The notes under the pieces: model-generated
Seen by the model: only the letters and a program-made list of their open reading frames with translations
The model's database searches: none
What the model was told of the DNA's origin: nothing
Source of the DNA: a virus
Strand: one strand, 5' to 3'
Length of the DNA stretch: 37,852 nt
Virus record (IMG/VR): IMGVR_UViG_3300010375_000011
Coordinates: 1-37,852 of that record
Shown: positions 1 to 37,852 of the stretch, one piece after another
Layout: every line of letters begins with the position of its first letter
How positions within the stretch are numbered: position 1 is the first letter of the stretch
Program-made: the position numbers and the translations under genes

Positions 1-1620
1 CCAGTGGTGTCCAACACGCTGATTCAAAGCACGTGGGCTAACTCCACGCTGTCGGATGTCGGCACGGCCATTAGCGACAGTCTCGACCGCTACGGCCGTG
101 GCGCGATGCAGGCCGCGCTAAAGAATATCGACGGCACCGCCGTGGCGCCCTCGATCACGTTTTCTAGCGAGGGCACTCTCGGCGCCTACCGCGTGTCGGC
201 GGGCGTGCTCGGCATCGCCGTGGCCGGCGCGCTCGTGCTGTCGATTTCCTCGACGGGCCTTAGCTTCACGAATCCGCTTGTCCTGCCGCTGGGCACGGCC
301 GCCGCGCCCGCGCTGACTTTCACGGCCAACACCAACACGGGCCTTTTTTCGCCGGGCACGAATCAGCTTGCGTGGTCGACCAACGGCGTGCAACGCATGT
401 CGATTGATGCCACGGGCTTGGTCACGGTGGCAAACACGCTGGGCGTGGGTGGCGCGCCGGCCCTCGGCAAGCTGCAAGTTATCGGCGGGGATGTCGTCAT
501 CGACAACGCCGCGAACTACTCCGCGAAGAATTCCGGCGGGACGGCCTCGTCCATCATGGCCCTTAGCGGGGCCAATCAATTGCAATTCGGCAACAGCGGG
601 GCCGTTACCTCGATTGCGTGGGCGACGGGCGGCTCTACCCGCATGACCCTGGACGGCAGCGGCTTGCAGCTCGCAAAAGCGATTTTCAGCGGCGTAACCG
701 AATCGGTGCGCATCCAAAACGATGGCGGGTATGTCAGCTTCTGGAACACGGCCAACACCACGCGCACGGGCACCCTATTGGGCACGGCCGGCACGTCGCT
801 TTCACTGATTTCCGAGAACGGCGCGACCCTGCAACTCGGCACGGCCGGCGCCGTTCGGATGACCATCGACGGCAGCGGCTATGTGGGCATCGGCCGCAAC
901 CCGATTTCGACGGTCGGAATCGCGATGAGCGATGGCACGATCACCACGCTTTACGGGTTCAACTATTCGAGCAACACGGTTTCCGGCATCGGCACGAACA
1001 GCGCGCACGCCCTCGGTTTCCTGACCAGCGGCAGCGAGCGCGCGCGCATTGACACCTCGGGCAATTTCCTAGTCGGTCTAACGGCGGCGACCTCCGGCAC
1101 CGCCGGCCGGGGCGTGCTGGAAATCAACGGTACGTCGTCGGCGCTGCTGGCGCTCGACGTTGCCGGCACGCGTAAGGGCTATTTCATCCATGACGGGACG
1201 AATGCGACTCTTGCGGCCGACGCCGGCACATTGCAATTCGTCGCAGGCGGAACGCAACGCCTGACCATTAGTACCGCTGGCGTTCTCACCGACACCAACG
1301 GGTTTGAACTCGGATACAAGGGCCTTCCGCAACAGAACCAAGCCGGCGCCTATACGCTGGTTGTCGGCGACCGTGGCAAACACGTCTATCAGCGTGCGGC
1401 CGCCGCCGTTACTGTGCCCTCTGGCACGTTCAGCGTGGGCGATGCCGTGACCATCGTTAACGGCACGAGCGGGACGATTTCTCTGACGCAAGGCGCTTCG
1501 GTCACGCTGCAACTTGCCGGCACGCTGACCACGGGTAGCCGCACGATCCTGGCCAACGGCGTAGCAAACATCCTTTGCGTATCGTCGAATCTGTTTTACG
1601 TGACGGGCAACGTGACATGA
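1..1620 (+). CDS. Tail fibre protein, 3' part (gene continues from 37685 across the contig join)
   Basis: The reading frame is open from base 1 (codon CCA) and is the continuation of the frame starting at ATG 37685; joined, the protein is 554 residues. The body has repeated beta-rich units of the kind ITFSSEGTLGAY, LTFTANTNTGLFSPGTNQLA and MTIDGSGYVGIG, typical of phage fibre shafts. The last ~110 residues (from about GFELGYKGLPQQNQAGAYTL) match the tip domain seen in many podovirus and siphovirus fibres, with Thr/Val-rich strands. It should act at the virion tip in receptor binding. A GTG at 4 could be mistaken for the start, but the true start lies at the other contig end. The gene overlaps the next by ATGA. 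Fibre assignment is confident; the receptor is unknown. Confidence 0.85.
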   Translation, partial: PVVSNTLIQSTWANSTLSDVGTAISDSLDRYGRGAMQAALKNIDGTAVAPSITFSSEGTLGAYRVSAGVLGIAVAGALVLSISSTGLSFTNPLVLPLGTAAAPALTFTANTNTGLFSPGTNQLAWSTNGVQRMSIDATGLVTVANTLGVGGAPALGKLQVIGGDVVIDNAANYSAKNSGGTASSIMALSGANQLQFGNSGAVTSIAWATGGSTRMTLDGSGLQLAKAIFSGVTESVRIQNDGGYVSFWNTANTTRTGTLLGTAGTSLSLISENGATLQLGTAGAVRMTIDGSGYVGIGRNPISTVGIAMSDGTITTLYGFNYSSNTVSGIGTNSAHALGFLTSGSERARIDTSGNFLVGLTAATSGTAGRGVLEINGTSSALLALDVAGTRKGYFIHDGTNATLAADAGTLQFVAGGTQRLTISTAGVLTDTNGFELGYKGLPQQNQAGAYTLVVGDRGKHVYQRAAAAVTVPSGTFSVGDAVTIVNGTSGTISLTQGASVTLQLAGTLTTGSRTILANGVANILCVSSNLFYVTGNVT

Positions 1621-3457: not shown

Positions 3458-4849
3458 ATGAAAACGCAAGCCCTGAACGCCCGCACCCTCGACGCCTTCA
3501 AGCCCTCGGACAAGCCCGTCCAGACGGACGGCGCCGGCCTTGTTCTGCGCCTGCGGTTTGTCGACGGCAAGCGCCACCCCAAGGGCCACGCATGGCAGTT
3601 CAACTACACGCGCCCCGTGACCAAGGCGCGCAACACCATGGGCGTGGGCCTGTACCCCGCCATGTCGCTGGCCGAGGCCCGCGCCAAGGCCGCCGAGCTG
3701 CGCGCCATGGTCGCCAACGGCCAAGACCCGATGGAACAGCGCGCCGAGCAAGCGCAGGCCGAAGCCGCCGCCCTGGCCGTGGTCGCCGCCGATCAGGCCC
3801 GCGCCGCTAAGGACTTCGCGCCGGCCGGCACGCTGCAAGGCGTCTGCCAGGACTATCACGACCTCATGACGGGCAACGGCAATTGGTCGGCCGATCACGC
3901 CGCCGGCTGGCTTGCCATGTTCGCGCGCAAGGTGTTTTGCACGCCCCTGGCGCGCAAGCCCATTGCCGAAGTCACGCCGACGGAAGTCCGCGACCTGCTG
4001 GCCGCTATTGAAAAGGCCGGGCAAGTCCCCACGGCCCGCGCCCTGCGCAAATACATGGGCAACGTGTGGGACTACGCCATTGCCCACGGCCTCGCCACCG
4101 TTTGCGCCCCGCGCGTCATCGCCAAGCAACTTAACCGCCGCCACGTCGGTGGCAACAATCCGGCCGTCACCAGCGCGGAAGCCCTGGCGCCCGTCCTGGC
4201 CGCGATCCGCGACTATCAAGGCCTCGTCACCCGCGTGGCCCTTATGGTGCAAGTCGTTTGCTTTCAGCGGCCCTCGGACACGTGCTCGATGCGTTGGGAT
4301 CAGGTCGACCTCGACGCCGGCCTCTGGTTCATCCCGGCCGCCTCGGACGATGAGAACGCCTCGACCAAAATTGCCAACAGCCTGAGCGGGCATGACCACG
4401 TGTCGCCGCTGCCCCGCCAGCTCGTGGCCGAGCTGCGCGCCCTGCGCGACGTGACGGGTTGGTCTGAATGGGTTTTCCCGAGCATGAGCACGCAGCGCGA
4501 GGGCCTGCCCATCGCTAACGATGCCCTGTCGCAAGCGCTGCGGGACATGGGTTTCAAGGGCCAGCAGACCCCGCACGGCCTGCGCGCCACGGCCCGCACC
4601 ATGATTGAAGAAGTCCTCGACTTCCGCGCCGTCTATATCGAGGCGCAGCTCGCCCACAAAGCCGGCATCGAGGGCCTGTCCGGCGCCGTCAAGCGCGATG
4701 TCCTGGGCACGGCCTATAACCGGGCAACGCACCTCGAAAAGCGCGTCGCCATGATTCAGGCCTGGGCCGACTACCTCGACGGCTTGCTCGCGGACTACGC
4801 GGCGCGCATGGTGGCGCTGCCGGCGCCGCTGGAGCTGATTGCGGCCTGA
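3458..4849 (+). CDS. int: P4-type tyrosine integrase
   Basis: 463 residues from ATG 3458, with CCGGAG as ribosome site. The N-terminus (~1-90) has the DUF4102 arm-binding fold (LVLRLRFVDGKRHPKGHAWQ, MGVGLYPAMSLAEARAKA). A core-binding region covers ~125-230. The catalytic domain has R271 (CFQRPSDTCSMRW), H373 and R376 (PHGLRATAR), H400 (EAQLAHK) and the nucleophile Y420 (GTAYNR), so all key residues are present. The enzyme inserts and removes the phage at attB. The start is preceded by candidate arm sites and a dyad operator; the last 55 bases overlap a convergent excisionase-like gene, so the two transcripts are mutually antisense at their 3' ends. Confidence 0.95.
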   Translation: MKTQALNARTLDAFKPSDKPVQTDGAGLVLRLRFVDGKRHPKGHAWQFNYTRPVTKARNTMGVGLYPAMSLAEARAKAAELRAMVANGQDPMEQRAEQAQAEAAALAVVAADQARAAKDFAPAGTLQGVCQDYHDLMTGNGNWSADHAAGWLAMFARKVFCTPLARKPIAEVTPTEVRDLLAAIEKAGQVPTARALRKYMGNVWDYAIAHGLATVCAPRVIAKQLNRRHVGGNNPAVTSAEALAPVLAAIRDYQGLVTRVALMVQVVCFQRPSDTCSMRWDQVDLDAGLWFIPAASDDENASTKIANSLSGHDHVSPLPRQLVAELRALRDVTGWSEWVFPSMSTQREGLPIANDALSQALRDMGFKGQQTPHGLRATARTMIEEVLDFRAVYIEAQLAHKAGIEGLSGAVKRDVLGTAYNRATHLEKRVAMIQAWADYLDGLLADYAARMVALPAPLELIAA

Positions 4850-15392: not shown

Positions 15393-16067
15393 ATGCACGG
15401 CGTCGACCCCCGCATGTTCGTCCCGCTGCCTGCCAGGGGCCGCGCGCGCGCCCCCTTCGCCTCGCTGGTCGTGGCGGTGCTGTACGCCCGCCGGGACAGC
15501 CACTACAAGGGGCACGCCTGCTGCGACGTCTTCGACATCGAGCGGGACGCCAGGACGTGGCGCGGCGGCGTGCCGGTGATTGCGCATCCGCCGTGCCGTG
15601 CGTGGGGTCGCATGCGAGACAAGGCCCAACCGCGACCGGACGAGGCCGGGCTCGCGCTGCTGGCAGTGGCGCAGGTGCGGTGCTGGGGCGGGGTGCTCGA
15701 ACACCCGCAGGGCTCGCGGCTTTGGGATGCGGCGGGCTTGCCCAAGCCGGGCCAGCGTGACGCGTGGGGCGGCTGGACGCTGCCGGTATCACAGCATTGG
15801 TGGGGCCATCGCGCCGAAAAGATGACGTGGCTTTACGTGGTCGGGTGCGAGCCCTGGAACGTGCCGGACATGCCGCTATCGCTGGCCGATCCGGTGGCGG
15901 TGGTGGCCCAACCGAAAAAGCGCAACGGCGTGGTGCGGCTTTACAAGGGCATGCCGGGGTGGAAACCGGAAATCAGCCGCAGCGAGCGGGAGAAGACGCC
16001 GCCGGACATGGCCGCGTGGCTCATCGAGCTGGCAAAGCGCTGCTACGCGGGGGGCGGCCATGCGTGA
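15393..16067 (+). CDS. Protein with PPC motif resembling a diverged C5-cytosine methyltransferase
   Basis: 224 residues from ATG 15393. The segment GGVPVIAHPPCRAWGRM has the PPC motif of C5-methyltransferase motif IV, preceded by CDVFDIERDA and followed by VLEHPQGSRLW, which recalls motif VI. Near the end, SEREKTPPDMAAWLIELA resembles the closing helix of such proteins. A clear AdoMet-binding motif I (DxFxGxG) is missing, so it may be inactive, need a partner, or act differently. It overlaps a PP-loop sulfur-transfer-like protein by eight bases, suggesting joint action on DNA or nucleotides. Family assignment is tentative. Confidence 0.65.
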   Translation: MHGVDPRMFVPLPARGRARAPFASLVVAVLYARRDSHYKGHACCDVFDIERDARTWRGGVPVIAHPPCRAWGRMRDKAQPRPDEAGLALLAVAQVRCWGGVLEHPQGSRLWDAAGLPKPGQRDAWGGWTLPVSQHWWGHRAEKMTWLYVVGCEPWNVPDMPLSLADPVAVVAQPKKRNGVVRLYKGMPGWKPEISRSEREKTPPDMAAWLIELAKRCYAGGGHA

Positions 16068-16923
16068 CCCGTTCGTCATCGAGGGGCCAACCTGCATCAG
16101 CTTCAGCGGCGGCCGGACTTCGGCCTACATGCTCTGGCGCGCGCTGCAAGCCCATGGCGGCAAGCTGCCCGATGACGCGCGGGTCGTGTTCGCCAACACC
16201 GGCAAAGAGGACGAGGCGACTTTGCGTTTCGTGCGTGACTGCGGCCAGCGTTGGGGCGTGCCCATTGTCTGGGTGCAATACCGCGACGCCGACGCGGTGG
16301 CCGACCGCTGGGAGGTGGTCACGTTCGAGACCGCCGCGCGCGAGGGCGAACCGTTTTCGGCCCTGAACCGGCGCCGCAACATGCTGCCCGCCCCGATGGC
16401 CCGTTTCTGCACGGGCGACCTAAAAATCAAACCGTCCAACGCCTATTGCCGTTCGCAGGGTTGGGCCGGCGGTTGGGATGCGTGGATGGGCATTCGCGCC
16501 GACGAACAACGCCGGGTCGCCAAGATGCGCGGCCGGCCTGCCGATGGCTCGGGAATCGAAACGCATTTGCCCCTGGCCGTTGCTGGCGTGACCCGTGACG
16601 AGGTGGGTGTGTTCTGGCGCGCGCAGGCCTTCGACCTCGGCTTGCCGAACATGAACGGCGTAACGATGCACGGCAACTGCGACCTTTGCTATCTGAAGCC
16701 CACAGGCCAGCTCGTGGCCCTGATTGCAGAGAAACCATCGCGCGCGACGTGGTGGATTGCGGAAGAGGCCTGGGCGAAGTCGATCACCCGCAACGCCAAT
16801 TGCCAAGGCATCCGGTTTCGCCCGCGCGACCCGACCTATACCGAGATGGCCCGGTTTGCCGCCGAACAGCGCGATATGTTCGATCCCGCCGAAGAGGCGA
16901 TCCCTTGTTTCTGCGGGGACTAG
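16060..16923 (+). CDS. PAPS-reductase-like PP-loop (adenine nucleotide alpha hydrolase) protein
   Basis: 287 residues from ATG 16060, overlapping the preceding gene by eight bases. The N-terminal PP-loop CISFSGGRTSAYML (SGGRTS at ~16-21) and VVFANTGKEDEATLRFV place it in the PAPS reductase/ATP-pyrophosphatase superfamily. Cys-bearing motifs ARFCTGDLKIKP, MHGNCDLCYLKP and the terminal CFCGD suggest a metal or Fe-S site, or sulfur relay. Phages use such proteins in unknown ways; related folds occur in DNA phosphorothioation (DndC) and tRNA thiolation. Assimilatory sulfate reduction itself is unlikely. A role in DNA modification with the PPC-motif neighbour is a hypothesis. Confidence 0.85.
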   Translation: MRDPFVIEGPTCISFSGGRTSAYMLWRALQAHGGKLPDDARVVFANTGKEDEATLRFVRDCGQRWGVPIVWVQYRDADAVADRWEVVTFETAAREGEPFSALNRRRNMLPAPMARFCTGDLKIKPSNAYCRSQGWAGGWDAWMGIRADEQRRVAKMRGRPADGSGIETHLPLAVAGVTRDEVGVFWRAQAFDLGLPNMNGVTMHGNCDLCYLKPTGQLVALIAEKPSRATWWIAEEAWAKSITRNANCQGIRFRPRDPTYTEMARFAAEQRDMFDPAEEAIPCFCGD

Positions 16924-19448: not shown

Positions 19449-19853
19449 ATGCAAGACGCTGTCATCCCTGCCACGAAAAACAAGGGCGGGCGCCCGCGTG
19501 GCTCGAAAACCGGCGCCAAGCCCAAGCCCATGACCCCGCGCGCGATGTCGCGCGAGCTGCGCGTCATGGCGATGACCTCGCTAGGTTTCGTGGGCGGCGT
19601 GAAGTATCTAGAACGCGTGGCGAAAACCAACCCCGCCGCATATCTCGCATTCCTTGCAAAAACGCTGGTCATGAAAGACGACAGCGACGACCAGGGCGAA
19701 CGCACCTACGCCGTGCAAGTCCTGCAAGTCGTGCCCGTGCCAACGCCGGGCGTCATCAATTCGCCCGTTGCCGGCCATATCGCGCGCGAGCACGTGCGCC
19801 TAGCCAGCAACGCGGGCGAAATCATCGAGAACGAGGCGCAGGGCAATGGCTGA
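19449..19853 (+). CDS. Probable terminase small subunit
   Basis: 134 residues from ATG 19449, directly behind the late terminator. A basic N-terminus with an AT-hook-like GGRPRGSKTGAKPKP leads to a helical domain (SRELRVMAMTSLGFVGGVKY, LERVAKTNPAAYLAFLAKTL) and an acidic C-terminal tail. It overlaps the start of the large subunit by eight bases. By position, size and DNA-binding N-terminus it is the packaging-site recognition subunit. No usable ribosome site is obvious in the hairpin, which is odd for a first late gene. Confidence 0.82.
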   Translation: MQDAVIPATKNKGGRPRGSKTGAKPKPMTPRAMSRELRVMAMTSLGFVGGVKYLERVAKTNPAAYLAFLAKTLVMKDDSDDQGERTYAVQVLQVVPVPTPGVINSPVAGHIAREHVRLASNAGEIIENEAQGNG

Positions 19854-21192
19854 AGCGATCACGGGCGGCTTTGTCCCGCGCCCCTATCAGCTCCCCTATA
19901 TGTTCGCCATGGACAACGGCTGCAAATTCGCCGTTTGGGTGATGCACCGTCGCGGCGGCAAAGACCGCACGGCCCTGGCGCAGACCTGCAAGGATGCGCA
20001 CCGCCGCGTGGGCCTGTATTGGCATTGCCTGCCCACGCTGAAACAGGGCCGCAAGGTGGTGTGGGACAACATCACGAGCGAGGGAAAAAACCTGATCGAC
20101 CAGACTTTCCCCGCGCACCTCGTCAAGCGCCGTCTTGAGGACGAAATGAAAATCGAGCTGCACAACGGTTCGATTGTTCAAGTCGTCGGGGCGGACAACT
20201 TCAATTCGCTTGTCGGCGCGTCGCCGGTTCACGTGACGTTTTCCGAGTGGTCGCTGACCGACCCCCGCGCGTATGACTTTGTCCGCCCGATCCTGCGCGA
20301 AAACAACGGGTCGGTGTCGTTCATCTATACGCCTCGCGGGTTCAACCACGGTTGGAAAACGCTAGAGGTTGCGCGCAAGCTGCCCAAGGCCTTTATGGCC
20401 GTCATGTCGATCCGCGACACGGGCGTTTTGACCGAGGCCGACATCGCACAAGAGCGGGCGTATGACATGCCCGAAGAGCTGATACAGCAAGAGTATTACT
20501 GTGACTTCGCCTCGGCCAATGTCGGGGCCATCGTGGGCCGCTATATCAGCGCCGCAGAACGTGACGGCCGCGTGACCGTTGACAGCCAGGTCGAACCCGG
20601 CGCGCGCGTTGTCGTCTCGTGCGACTTGGGCTTTCGTGACGCCGCCGCGTTCTGGTTCTGGCAGATCAATCCGGGCGGTTTTGACCTCGTGCATTACGAG
20701 GAAGCCAGCGGCCTGGACGCCTCGGAATGGATCACGCGCCTTAAAGGCCTGGACATCAAGATTTCGCATGTCTATCTGCCGCACGATGCCCGCGCCAAGA
20801 CCATGGCGTCGCGGCATACGGTGGCCGAGCAATTCGCCAAGGCCTTTGAATGCTCGGTCGTCCCGCAAGGCAAATTGCAAGACCGGATCAACGCCGCGCG
20901 CCTCGTGATTCCGCGTTGCCGGTTCCACCCGGACGCCTGCGCCCGGGGCCTTGAGGCCCTGCGCGCGTGGGCCTTCAAGTGGGATGACGACCGCAAGATT
21001 TTTTCGGCCGAGCCCGAACACAACTGGGCTTCCCACGGCGCCGACGCCTTTAGCTACGGCGCGCAAGTCGTGCGCGAGCTGCTGCGCAGCGAAGCCCCGA
21101 AAGAGGCCCGCGTTTTCGACGGCACCCATTACCCCTTTTCGCTAGAAGAGCTGCACGAGACCGTGGGCTATCGACGCGATAACCGCATGTAA
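19846..21192 (+). CDS. terL: Terminase large subunit (ATPase and nuclease)
   Basis: 448 residues from ATG 19846. Walker A-like HRRGGKDRTA (~34-43), Walker B with catalytic Glu in HVTFSEW (E134), and the coupling motif YTPRG (161-165) define the packaging ATPase. The C-terminal RNase H-like nuclease has Asp260 (VVSCDLGFRDAAAF), Asp314 (YLPHDA) and Asp400 (SHGADAFSY). It translocates DNA into the prohead and cuts it at the end of packaging. It is complete, and its length is normal for podovirus/siphovirus TerL. Confidence 0.95.
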   Translation: MAEAITGGFVPRPYQLPYMFAMDNGCKFAVWVMHRRGGKDRTALAQTCKDAHRRVGLYWHCLPTLKQGRKVVWDNITSEGKNLIDQTFPAHLVKRRLEDEMKIELHNGSIVQVVGADNFNSLVGASPVHVTFSEWSLTDPRAYDFVRPILRENNGSVSFIYTPRGFNHGWKTLEVARKLPKAFMAVMSIRDTGVLTEADIAQERAYDMPEELIQQEYYCDFASANVGAIVGRYISAAERDGRVTVDSQVEPGARVVVSCDLGFRDAAAFWFWQINPGGFDLVHYEEASGLDASEWITRLKGLDIKISHVYLPHDARAKTMASRHTVAEQFAKAFECSVVPQGKLQDRINAARLVIPRCRFHPDACARGLEALRAWAFKWDDDRKIFSAEPEHNWASHGADAFSYGAQVVRELLRSEAPKEARVFDGTHYPFSLEELHETVGYRRDNRM

Positions 21193-21201
21193 GGCACCGC
21201 C

Positions 21202-23352
21202 ATGGCAGATACCACCACCGCCGACGACGCCACGCTAGACGCGATGGGCGAATCCGACGCGCCGCAGGCGGGCAATCCGCTGGCGAAGTCGCAGGCCCTC
21301 GCGCGCAAGTGGCAGCTTGAAATCGCCGCCGCCCGCAAGTGGATGAAACGCTTTCAAAAGGCCGCGCGCGACTGCGAAAAGGCCTACCTTGACAGCTCGC
21401 AGGTTCGCGATGCGCTCGTGCGCACCTATCAAGGCAAGACCAACCTGTTTTGGTCAAACGTGCAGGTCATCCTGTCGGCCATCTATGGCCGCCTGCCCAA
21501 AGCGGAAGTCGACCGCAAGTTTGGAGACTTTGACGACGATGTCGCCCGCGTGGCCGGCATCATCATGCAGCGCATTCTGAACGGGGATATTGAACGCGAG
21601 CATGACGACACGTCGGCCAGCATGCGCGACGCGGTGCAAGACCGTTTCGTCTCGGGCCTGGGGCAAGTGTGGGTGCGCTATGACGTGGACACCGAGATTC
21701 AAGAGCATCCGCAGCTAGACCCGATGACGGGTCAGCCGCCCATCGATCCGGCCACGGGTCAGCCCGTCATCGATCCCGAGACGGGCCAGCCGCCCACGCA
21801 GCAAGTCGAAACGATCCTGAACGAAGAGGCCGAAGTCGACTACGTCTATTGGGACGATTTTCTCTATTCGCCGTGCCGTCGCTGGCGCGAATGCCGATGG
21901 GTCGCGCGCCGTGTCTACCTGTCGCAGCCCAAGCTCATGGCGCGTTTTAAGCTGACCAAAGAGCAGGCCGAAGAAATTCCCATGGTCATGCAGGCCCCGG
22001 CCGACAACCAGGGCGACCGCGAAACCGACGTTCTCAAGGCCACGCCGTTTAAGCAAGCCGCCGTGTGGGAGCTGTGGGACAAAGACTCGAACTCGGTTTG
22101 CTGGTTTGTAGAGGGATATCAAAACGTCCTCGACTACCAACCCGACCCGCTAGAGCTGGACGACTTTTTCCCCTGCCCGCAACCGGTCGTCGCCACCACG
22201 CTAACTAGCGCTTTCATCCCGCGCCCGGACTACTCCATGGCGCAAGACCTGTACAAAGAGCTAGACCGCATCAATTCCAAGCTCTCGCACCTGACCGACG
22301 CCGTCAAGGCGGCAGGCGTCTATGACAAGAACGCGGCGGGTCTGAAAAGCCTGCTGACAACCGCGGTTGAAAACGCCCTTGTGCCGGTCGACAACTGGTC
22401 AGCGTTCAGCGAAAAGGGCGCGCTCAAAGGCGCCATGGATTGGATGCCTATCGAACAGTTCGTCAACGCCATCGTGCAACTGAACCAGCGCAAGCAACAG
22501 TTGCAAAGCGACCTATACGAAGTCCTGGGCATCTCGGACATCATGCGCGGCGCCAGCGTTGCCAGCGAGACGGCCACGGCGCAGCAACTAAAAGTCCAAT
22601 ACGGTGGCGCGCGCCTGAGCAACCTGCAAAACGACGTGGCGCGATTCGTGTCGGCCACGATGCGCATTCGCGCCAACATCATTTGCAACGTGTGGCAGCC
22701 TCAGACCATCATCGAGCGCTCGCAGATCATGCGCACGCCCGACGCGCCTTTCGCGCAGCAGGCCGTGCAGTTGCTCAAGGATTTTGGAACCGCCATGTTC
22801 CGAATCGTGGTCACGGCCGACACGCTCGCCGCGCCCGATTGGGAGGCCGAGAAGACGGCCCGTACCGAATTCCTCGGCGCCGTCTCCAACTACATCATGT
22901 CGGCCGGCCCGGTCGTGCAGAGCAATCCGCAGCTCGGCGCGTTCATGATGAAACTGCTTCAGTGGGCCGCCGCCGGCTTCAAGGGTGCAAAGGGCATCGA
23001 GGGCGTTCTCGATCAGGCCGCGCGCCAGCTCGAACAGCAGGCGCAGACCCCGCCGCCGCCGGCACCGCCCAGCCCCGAGGATCAAAAGAACACCGCGCAG
23101 GCGGCCAAGTACAACGCCGAGGCCAACCGCACGCAGAAAGAGGCCGCCCTTATCCCGCCGCAGGAAATCCGCCCGCCGGGCTTCCCTCCTGGCGGTATCC
23201 CGGGCTTCCCGCAGCTCGGCGAAATCCCCGGCGGCTCGATGGCGCCTAACGCCATCCCGCACGGGGGCCCGCAACCAGCCGCGCAAGGCCTGCCCGCTGC
23301 CCCTGGCACGGTCGCGCCGATGCTGCCGGCCCAACTGCCGCCCATCCAATGA
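21202..23352 (+). CDS. Portal protein (head-tail connector)
   Basis: 716 residues from ATG 21202. The N-terminal half contains AYLDSSQVRDALVRTYQGKT, NLFWSNVQVILSAIYGRLPK and repeats of the DPATGQPVIDPETGQPPT kind; the central part has YSMAQDLYKELDRINSKLSH and SDIMRGASVASETATAQQLK, typical of large podovirus portals. The C-terminal ~120 residues are Pro/Ala/Gln-rich and disordered, and may bind scaffold. It forms the dodecameric DNA gate between head and tail. It follows terL by ten bases. Confidence 0.9.
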   Translation: MADTTTADDATLDAMGESDAPQAGNPLAKSQALARKWQLEIAAARKWMKRFQKAARDCEKAYLDSSQVRDALVRTYQGKTNLFWSNVQVILSAIYGRLPKAEVDRKFGDFDDDVARVAGIIMQRILNGDIEREHDDTSASMRDAVQDRFVSGLGQVWVRYDVDTEIQEHPQLDPMTGQPPIDPATGQPVIDPETGQPPTQQVETILNEEAEVDYVYWDDFLYSPCRRWRECRWVARRVYLSQPKLMARFKLTKEQAEEIPMVMQAPADNQGDRETDVLKATPFKQAAVWELWDKDSNSVCWFVEGYQNVLDYQPDPLELDDFFPCPQPVVATTLTSAFIPRPDYSMAQDLYKELDRINSKLSHLTDAVKAAGVYDKNAAGLKSLLTTAVENALVPVDNWSAFSEKGALKGAMDWMPIEQFVNAIVQLNQRKQQLQSDLYEVLGISDIMRGASVASETATAQQLKVQYGGARLSNLQNDVARFVSATMRIRANIICNVWQPQTIIERSQIMRTPDAPFAQQAVQLLKDFGTAMFRIVVTADTLAAPDWEAEKTARTEFLGAVSNYIMSAGPVVQSNPQLGAFMMKLLQWAAAGFKGAKGIEGVLDQAARQLEQQAQTPPPPAPPSPEDQKNTAQAAKYNAEANRTQKEAALIPPQEIRPPGFPPGGIPGFPQLGEIPGGSMAPNAIPHGGPQPAAQGLPAAPGTVAPMLPAQLPPIQ

Positions 23353-24008: not shown

Positions 24009-25130
24009 ATGACCATGGCAACCGAACTTGACACCAACACGGCCAGCGATACGGGCGGCGATGACGCCGAAGAGCTATCCCTGCGCGACACCATCGATGC
24101 GGCCTTTGAAGAGACCGCGACCGACGAACCGCAAGACACCCCGGCTAGCCGCGCGCGCGATGAGCAAGGCCGATTTGCCAGCAAGGCCGCCACGCCTGCG
24201 GCGCAGGTCGCGCCAGGGCCCGCGCCGGCCGCGCAGCAGGCACAGCAGGCCGCGCCCGACCTCACGCAGATAAACGGCCTGCCGCAACAGGGCCAGGGCG
24301 CCGCGCCCGCCGCGCCCGAGCTGAAGGCGCCCGCGTCCTGGCGCCCCGAGGCCCGCGAGAAATGGGCGTCCATCGATCCCGACATCCGCGCCGAAATCCA
24401 CAAGCGCGAGTCCGAGGCAAACCGGGTAGTTCAGACTGCGGCGCAGCAACGACAGTTTGTGGAGCAATTCGAAAAGCTCATGCAGCCTTACGAAATGTTC
24501 ATTCGGGCCGAGAACTCGAACCCGCTTGCGGCCGTCGATAACATGATGCGCACGGCCGCCGAGCTGCGGGTCGGCACCCCCATGGCGAAGGCCAATCTCG
24601 TGGCCGGGATCATCCGCAATTTCGGGATTGATCTACCGATGCTCGATAGCATCCTCGCGGGCCAGCCACCCCAAGGCGTGGTCAATCCCGCTCAAGCCCA
24701 ATTCCATGATCCGCGCGTCGACCAATTGCTCGCCATGCAAGCGCAGCAGGCGCAAGAGGCCGCGCGGTTTGAAAACGAGGCGATCCGCACCGGCTTGCAG
24801 CAATTCGCCGCCGCGCCAGGGCATGAGTTTTACGGGGACGTGGCCGGCATCATGGCCGACATGGTCGAGATTCAAGCGCGCCAGGGCCAGCCTATCGACC
24901 TCGAAAAAATCTATCAGCGGGCTTGCCAACTGCATGATGACGTGTCTACCATTCTCACGCAGCGAGCAGCCGCGCAAAGCGCCGGCAACAACTCGCGGGC
25001 GGTACTTCGCGCGAAGCGCGCCGCATCGAGCCTAAAGAGCGATCCGACCCCGGGCGGGGCCACGGCGCCTAAAAGCGACTCGATCCGCGCTGCCATCGAA
25101 GCCGCCATGGATTCGGCAGGCGACGCCTAG
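24009..25130 (+). CDS. Scaffolding protein
   Basis: 373 residues from ATG 24009 (a second in-frame ATG lies two codons on). An acidic N-terminus (GGDDAEELSLRDTIDAAFEE), an Ala/Gln/Pro-rich linker, LKAPASWRPEAREKWASIDP followed by DIRAEIHKRESEANRVVQTA, a long helical body and a basic C-terminal tail are typical of podovirus capsid assembly scaffolds. It stands between portal and major capsid genes, the expected order. It directs prohead assembly and is removed before packaging. Confidence 0.88.
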   Translation: MTMATELDTNTASDTGGDDAEELSLRDTIDAAFEETATDEPQDTPASRARDEQGRFASKAATPAAQVAPGPAPAAQQAQQAAPDLTQINGLPQQGQGAAPAAPELKAPASWRPEAREKWASIDPDIRAEIHKRESEANRVVQTAAQQRQFVEQFEKLMQPYEMFIRAENSNPLAAVDNMMRTAAELRVGTPMAKANLVAGIIRNFGIDLPMLDSILAGQPPQGVVNPAQAQFHDPRVDQLLAMQAQQAQEAARFENEAIRTGLQQFAAAPGHEFYGDVAGIMADMVEIQARQGQPIDLEKIYQRACQLHDDVSTILTQRAAAQSAGNNSRAVLRAKRAASSLKSDPTPGGATAPKSDSIRAAIEAAMDSAGDA

Positions 25131-25197: not shown

Positions 25198-25251
25198 CTC
25201 GGGCCATCTCCAAACGGTCGTGACTCACCACCACTTTTTGGAGCCCTCACC

Positions 25252-25929
25252 ATGGCTTTTCCGAACGTCACCGACATCGTCGCGACCACCATCGAGGCGC
25301 GCTCGCGCAAGCTGGCCGACAACGTCACCAAGAACAACGCTCTTCTTTCGCGCCTGAACGAGCGCGGCAACATCCGCACCGTGTCGGGCGGCTCGCTGAT
25401 CTTTGAAGAAATCAGCTTCGCCGAAAACGGCAACGTGGGTTGGTATTCGGGCTATGACCTGCTGCCGGTCGCCGCGCAGGATGTCATCAGCGCCGCGCAA
25501 TTCGACTTCAAGCAGGCGGCCTGCCCGGTCGTCATCTCGGGTCTCGACCAGCTCAAGAACGCCGGCAAAGAGCAATTTATCGACTTGCTCGAAGGCCGTA
25601 TCAAGGTCGCGGAATCGACCATGATGAACCTGCTTGCCGCTGGCGTTTACAGCGACGGCACGGGCGCGGGCGGTAAGCAACTGATTGGCCTGGACGCCGC
25701 CGTCCCGGTGAATCCCGCGACCGGTGTCTATGGCGGTATCGACCGCGCGACGTGGGCTTTCTGGCGCAGCAAGTCCACCACCATGGGCAGCACGGCCACC
25801 ACCACCACGATTCAGCCGGCCATGAATACCATGTGGTCGAGCCTCGTGCGCGGCATGGATCGCCCCGACCTGATCGTCATGGACAACTTCATGTGGGGCA
25901 TCTACATGGGGTCGCTCCAAGTGCAATAG
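25252..25929 (+). CDS. Major capsid protein, N-terminal 225 codons, ending at an in-frame TAG
   Basis: ATG 25252 has a GGAG ribosome site in a U-rich context (ACTTTTTGGAGCC). The sequence FPNVTDIVATTIEARSRKLA, NNALLSRLNERGNIRTVSGG, EQFIDLLEGRIKVAESTMMN, GIDRATWAFWRSKST and PDLIVMDNFMWGIYMGSLQ identifies an HK97-fold major capsid protein of betaproteobacterial podoviruses. At codon 226 the frame hits TAG (25927-25929), and coding continues in the same frame to TAA at 26217 with a conserved-looking C-terminus. The whole gene would encode 321 residues, a normal length for the family. Truncation here would remove about 95 residues of the fold, so the 225-residue product alone is unlikely to build a capsid. 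Alternatives are a CAG-to-TAG base error, an amber mutation, or readthrough. Confidence 0.85.
   Translation: MAFPNVTDIVATTIEARSRKLADNVTKNNALLSRLNERGNIRTVSGGSLIFEEISFAENGNVGWYSGYDLLPVAAQDVISAAQFDFKQAACPVVISGLDQLKNAGKEQFIDLLEGRIKVAESTMMNLLAAGVYSDGTGAGGKQLIGLDAAVPVNPATGVYGGIDRATWAFWRSKSTTMGSTATTTTIQPAMNTMWSSLVRGMDRPDLIVMDNFMWGIYMGSLQVQ
25927..25929 (+). other. In-frame amber codon inside the major capsid gene
   Basis: The codons read GTG CAA TAG CGT TTC ACG. Both sides are in the same frame with no other stop for 226 codons upstream and 95 downstream. One C-to-T change from CAG (Gln) would explain it. TAG is used as a normal stop by several other genes here (for example those ending at 2266, 16923, 19287, 23552, 25130 and 26489), so global reassignment of TAG is excluded. 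Confidence 0.9.
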
Positions 25930-25947
25930 CGTTTCACGTCGCCGACC

Positions 25948-26217
25948 GTGGGCAACCTCGGTTTCCCGACGATCAAATTCATGGATGCCGATGTCGTTCT
26001 CGATGGCGGTATCGGCGGCTTCGCCGTCACGAAGACCATGTATTTCCTGAACTCGAAATACATCTTCTTCCGCCCCCACGCCGACCGCAACATGGTGTCG
26101 CTCGCGCCGAATCGCCGCTATGCGATCAACCAGGACGCGGAAGTCCAAATCCTGGCCTGGGCCGGGAACATGACCAGCAGCGGCGCGCAATTCCAAGGCC
26201 GTCTGATCTCGCCGTAA
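25948..26217 (+). CDS. Major capsid protein, C-terminal part after the amber codon
   Basis: This frame is in phase with the preceding capsid segment; GTG 25948 is only a formal start and has no ribosome site. It encodes LGFPTIKFMDADVVLDGGIG, TMYFLNSKYIFFRPHADRNM and RYAINQDAEVQILAWAGNMT, the conserved C-terminal beta-rich part of the same capsid family. Independent translation is improbable. It is best read as the rest of a 321-residue capsid protein, and an intrinsic terminator follows at once. Confidence 0.75.
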   Translation: MGNLGFPTIKFMDADVVLDGGIGGFAVTKTMYFLNSKYIFFRPHADRNMVSLAPNRRYAINQDAEVQILAWAGNMTSSGAQFQGRLISP

Positions 26218-37684: not shown

Positions 37685-37852
37685 ATGCTGCGTAATTCCT
37701 CGGGCATCTATTCGTTGCCGGCCGGCAATCCAGTGGTGTCCAACACGCTGATTCAAAGCACGTGGGCTAACTCCACGCTGTCGGATGTCGGCACGGCCAT
37801 TAGCGACAGTCTCGACCGCTACGGCCGTGGCGCGATGCAGGCCGCGCTAAAG
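37685..37852 (+). CDS. Tail fibre protein, 5' part (continues at position 1)
   Basis: ATG 37685 with an AAAGGGG ribosome site begins MLRNSSGIYSLPAGNPVVSN, a typical podovirus fibre N-terminus that binds the tail. The contig ends after 56 codons, but the last 123 bases repeat the first 123, so the frame continues as the segment 1-1620 to give a 554-residue protein. It follows the internal virion protein by 11 bases. Confidence 0.88.
   Translation, partial: MLRNSSGIYSLPAGNPVVSNTLIQSTWANSTLSDVGTAISDSLDRYGRGAMQAALK
37730..37852 (+). repeat. 123-bp terminal direct repeat, identical to 1-123
   Basis: Bases 37730-37852 equal 1-123 exactly. It lies in frame inside the tail fibre gene, so the most economical explanation is an assembly overlap of a circular or circularly permuted genome rather than a biological terminal repeat. 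Confidence 0.95.

Follow-up and report, generated by a model that had tools for sequence, protein, structure and literature searches.

The window analysed here spans an entire virus record (37,852 bases), and within it the gene for the major capsid protein (MCP) is interrupted by a single in-frame stop codon. The frame opens with ATG at 25252, meets TAG at 25927-25929 (codon 226, in the context CTC CAA GTG CAA TAG CGT TTC) and stays open beyond it as far as TAA at 26215-26217, full readthrough of 25252-26217 giving 321 residues. Residues 1-224 match the phrog_9953 'major head protein' profile (E 4e-77), and the N-terminal part shares 62-68% identity with its counterparts in Stenotrophomonas phage BUCT555 and Myxococcus phage Mx9, which together with Myxococcus phage Mx8 are the best-matching named phages by capsid. 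The full-length frame aligns across the stop with 79 relatives at 50-99% identity (an 80-sequence alignment), the C-terminal part carrying the alignment of the same relatives onward. With Gln placed at the stop, the AlphaFold2 model of the full-length frame is of moderate confidence (pLDDT 74.6, pTM 0.73), and its PDB matches are HK97-fold capsids (best E 2e-9). The region is an HK97-fold MCP gene of phrog_9953 with one TAG interruption; where the family has a single uninterrupted frame, this frame is broken at codon 226, which makes the gene a lesioned family copy. A first-pass annotation of the DNA had described this frame, its stop and the 321-residue product, and had assigned both halves to one capsid family; all of this is borne out, the last point by phrog_9953 on the N-terminal side and by the shared alignment on the C-terminal side.

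Two simple ways around the stop were rejected. An intron or insertion at this point is ruled out, as the frame runs on codon for codon, and an internal restart would have to use the next GTG, at 25948, which is preceded by no visible ribosome-binding site and from which only 89 residues could be made. We also note an open frame of 323 codons antisense to the entire capsid gene (25225-26196, minus strand), which probably results from GC-rich codon use.

Table 1. Features of the window, with positions counted from its first base
Feature	Position	Strand	Remarks
Exact 123-base direct terminal repeat	1..123 and 37730-37852	+	inside tail fibre frame
Tyrosine integrase	3458..4849	+	PF00589, PF13356, PF22022
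Terminase large subunit	19846-21192	+	PHROG matches phrog_2, phrog_12082 (terminase and portal); frame open
Portal	21202-23352	+	PHROG matches phrog_2, phrog_12082 (terminase and portal); frame open
Gene directly upstream of the capsid gene, in scaffold/protease position	24009..25130	+	no family match; ends TAG
N-terminal 225 codons of MCP gene, HK97 fold	25252..25926	+	phrog_9953 match; BUCT555/Mx9 identity
Another private C-to-T substitution, A224V (GCG to GTG)	25922..25922	+	5 bases upstream of the TAG change
In-frame TAG, codon 226	25927..25929	+	every viral relative compared has Gln (CAG/CAA) here
C-terminal 95 codons and TAA	25930..26217	+	10 synonymous/0 nonsynonymous differences from L002

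The genome around the capsid gene (Table 1) also holds recombination and tail genes, and its tyrosine integrase marks it as a temperate phage. This temperate phage further carries a phosphoadenosine phosphosulfate reductase-like auxiliary metabolic gene (16060-16923; phrog_424, E 1e-48). Two complete relatives have terminal repeats of 127, the usual metaSPAdes value. A MEGAHIT k-mer list ending in 123 has been run by JGI, there for metatranscriptomes (PMC6243002). The 123-base repeat of the window thus looks like the overlap of a circular assembly, equal to an assembler k-mer, rather than a biological terminal repeat, and on this reading the phage is probably complete. The nearest prophage that we found, in Ramlibacter monticola (76-77% identity in the capsid), hints at a Burkholderiales host.

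Was the rest of the phage intact, as the first-pass annotation had proposed? Judged against the frames of 211 related loci, the capsid TAG is the only coding-frame stop in the window with broad multi-relative support, in a survey that kept coding frames because unfiltered stops were mostly wrong-frame or antisense. Across nine late genes, the columns on which at least 97% of relatives agree show one other departure, a conservative Y-to-F change in the terminase. Together with the circular assembly, these observations agree with an otherwise intact phage, its left half being less well tested for integrity as it has few relatives, and generally poor sequence quality can be set aside. The capsid TAG is therefore not part of a wider decay. 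An independent second capsid gene, which the first-pass annotation had named as a sign against its reading, did not emerge either: the 20 window proteins searched against PHROGs gave no family match for one.

Codon 226 among relatives

Codon 226 is a glutamine codon wherever we could follow it in viruses, with 143 CAG and 42 CAA among 185 distinct viral capsid DNAs, none of which has an internal stop within the aligned capsid gene. Five named phages (BUCT555, Mx9, Mx8, ppBjS10J-1 and RHph_I3_18) carry CAG. Copies in bacterial genomes that cover the codon encode Gln in 48 of 49 cases and Glu in the remaining one. A pattern scan of IMG/VR returned no contig with TAG in the capsid motif and at least 120 with CAR in the same motif, the absence of TAG holding for the records visible to such scans, from which near-identical records may have been hidden. 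Three further searches gave no matches: one of a phage collection by nucleotide similarity, one of IMG/VR with the recombination protein, and an initial genome scan using one sequence. Across the 211 related loci, the stop is aligned to the residue of a relative in 201 alignments, every one of them Gln; as no other stop is comparably supported, we regard the observation as more than chance.

In the 80-sequence alignment both Q226 and R227 are invariant, as the first-pass annotation had stated for homologues when it proposed a C-to-T change from a Gln codon. That origin is upheld by the CAG and CAA codons of the relatives and by the comparison of private changes below, and the search for TAG or CAG in related phages that it had called for returned CAG or CAA throughout the viral relatives and TAG nowhere. 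The stop is thus confined to one genome and lies a single step from the ancestral codon. Because the relatives carry Gln and none of them, over 230 phages and prophages together, carries TAG, we read it as a private C-to-T change and not as a conserved recoding signal.

Capsid genes of relatives are interrupted in other ways. One is split at about codons 67-69 by a group I intron (L114:4982-5277, minus; RF00028, 80.6 bits). Another is split twice (L152:4920-6981, minus): an insertion of about 260 bases lies near codon 65, close to the intron site of the former, and a second one, of about 850 bases, near codon 90. No match to an Rfam family reaches threshold in these insertions. Frameshift-like lesions, at first seen in 3 of the 185 viral genes, fell to 1 of 185 once two had proved to be insertions, one of them the group I intron; the apparent frameshift that is left, at about codons 234-241 (L078:3936-3960), is the sole other point-type lesion among the 185 viral copies.

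Constraint past the stop and private changes

The nearest relative, L002 (99% in the N-terminal part), differs from the window by 32 synonymous and 3 nonsynonymous codon changes before the stop, and by 10 synonymous and no nonsynonymous changes in the 95 codons past it. Since neutral drift would lead one to expect about 7 nonsynonymous changes among 10, the part past the stop has been under selection for almost the whole time since the two split, so that the lesion is either very young or its product is still made. This supports the earlier suggestion that the event is recent or the C-terminus is used, and the lack of decay in the C-terminal part would be explained equally by continued use.

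The change itself is of the commonest private kind in both lineages, C-to-T making up 11 of 18 private changes on the window branch and 22 of 39 on the L002 branch. Codons 224 and 226 are the only capsid positions whose residues occur in at most 1 of 80 relatives, and both are private C-to-T changes; such a pair, 5 bases apart, would fit a poorly covered patch. Valine at position 224 is natural in phage Mx8, which makes A224V a tolerable residue.

Readings of the stop

We consider it very probable that the TAG reflects a recent C-to-T nonsense substitution, private to this genome and placed at an otherwise invariant Gln codon, rather than a recoding device, counting together a real inactivating mutation and an error of the consensus. 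At the level of sequence, the private state, the single C-to-T step, the intact surroundings and the constraint past the stop are established by the comparisons above; from them we infer the loss of capsid function and weigh a biological against a technical source, and the likelihoods that we attach to the readings are judgements, not computed values. Were the TAG present in the DNA, ribosomes would halt after 225 of the 321 residues, and an HK97 fold deprived of its final 96 residues would give no capsid, leaving a defective genotype that might be kept as a lysogen, replicate without packaging or be packaged by a helper. To such a real inactivating amber in the sampled phage, helper-dependent or carried by lysogens, we give about an even chance: it takes one step of the commonest type, the integrase is present, and no rescue is seen, with neither a tRNA in the window nor a second capsid among the 20 proteins searched. 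It would need to be very recent, given that nothing else has decayed and that the contig closes as a circle, which points to free or concatemeric DNA; such DNA is awkward for a capsid-less genotype, though a defective prophage, once induced, would excise and replicate all the same. Were the TAG absent from the DNA, it would be a consensus base error, the population having Gln at 226 and the contig having followed a wrong branch where coverage was thin. We hold this to be a serious possibility, at somewhat under even odds, since the only two near-unique residues of a strongly constrained gene lie 5 bases apart as private C-to-T changes, the remaining genome is intact and its DNA circular, and no relative has TAG. 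Against it, the conserved sites elsewhere speak against a general quality problem, MEGAHIT normally requires a k-mer to occur twice, natural changes in the lineage are themselves most often C-to-T, and V224 occurs in Mx8. From the options listed in the first-pass annotation, sequencing error and a real amber mutation thus stand, whereas programmed readthrough is unsupported for want of any relative with the stop.

That last proposal, a programmed readthrough site yielding two capsid proteins of different length, draws on the preserved downstream frame and on the CAA 5' and C 3' of the TAG, which resemble part of known leaky stop contexts. The same bases are ordinary inherited coding sequence of the family, codon 225 being Gln in 58 of 80 sequences and Arg 227 invariant, and the stop recurs in none of the 185 viral and 49 bacterial copies and nowhere in the IMG/VR scan. 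RNA folding past the stop is weak in the window and is not seen in its nearest relative (z against shuffles of -1.65 for the window, 0.03 for L002 and 0.00 for L004), so that no conserved stimulatory context or RNA structure was found 3' of the TAG in these three folds; and, on the structural model, termination here would cut the HK97 core short. An evolved readthrough site at codon 226 therefore finds no support in these sequence comparisons, and we rate it as very improbable. Maintenance of the amber by a host suppressor tRNA is also improbable, if slightly less so: a supE-like tRNA would put back the Gln typical of the family, and the C-terminal part is constrained, but the phage has no tRNA, and suppression would also extend to other genes here whose TAG stops lie at conserved ends. 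There is, taken broadly, a slim chance that the phage tolerates a real amber, with enough full-length capsid made through low-level readthrough or by a host suppressor, and a leaky stop being newly used in the most abundant structural gene.

Reassignment of TAG to an amino acid throughout the phage (genetic code 15) we regard as next to impossible. The in-frame TAG does sit at a Gln codon, but it is the only one and affects one gene; the upstream gene at 24009-25130 terminates with TAG where its family conserves the gene end, a place at which 175 relatives stop with TGA, TAG or TAA; and no tRNA gene, hence no phage-encoded suppressor tRNA, was found in the window. TAG is accordingly still in use as a terminator, global reassignment is refuted, and its exclusion in the first-pass annotation is sustained.

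Relation to known systems

Phages that use code 15 read TAG as Gln at numerous sites and may also encode suppressor tRNAs. TAG is reassigned to glutamine in crAss-like phages (PMC7886860, PMC9523058), and the capsid gene studied here resembles those cases in having TAG where relatives have Gln. In contrast to them, the window has one such TAG, no tRNA, and other genes that TAG still terminates. The same capsid protein is found in BUCT555 and in Mx8 and Mx9 (phrog_9953; 59-68% identity over the N-terminal part), and the gene order of BUCT555 is alike, with the capsid gene after the terminase and a gene of similar size; unlike that of the window, the capsid genes of these phages are uninterrupted and have CAG at codon 226.

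In-frame stops are reported to be widespread in prokaryotic genes and most frequent in the mobilome category, sequencing errors being named as one source (Belinky et al. 2021, PMC7918605). As a single CAG-to-TAG step with constraint kept downstream, the capsid stop is like the sporadic nonsense substitutions of that study, and the kind of event is already known; that study counted only stops common to at least two genomes, whereas the capsid TAG occurs in one. A private single stop in a metagenome contig should prompt a comparison with relatives and with the reads before anyone proposes recoding or readthrough. If the amber proves to be real and tolerated, the phage would be a notable case of a natural conditional capsid mutant.
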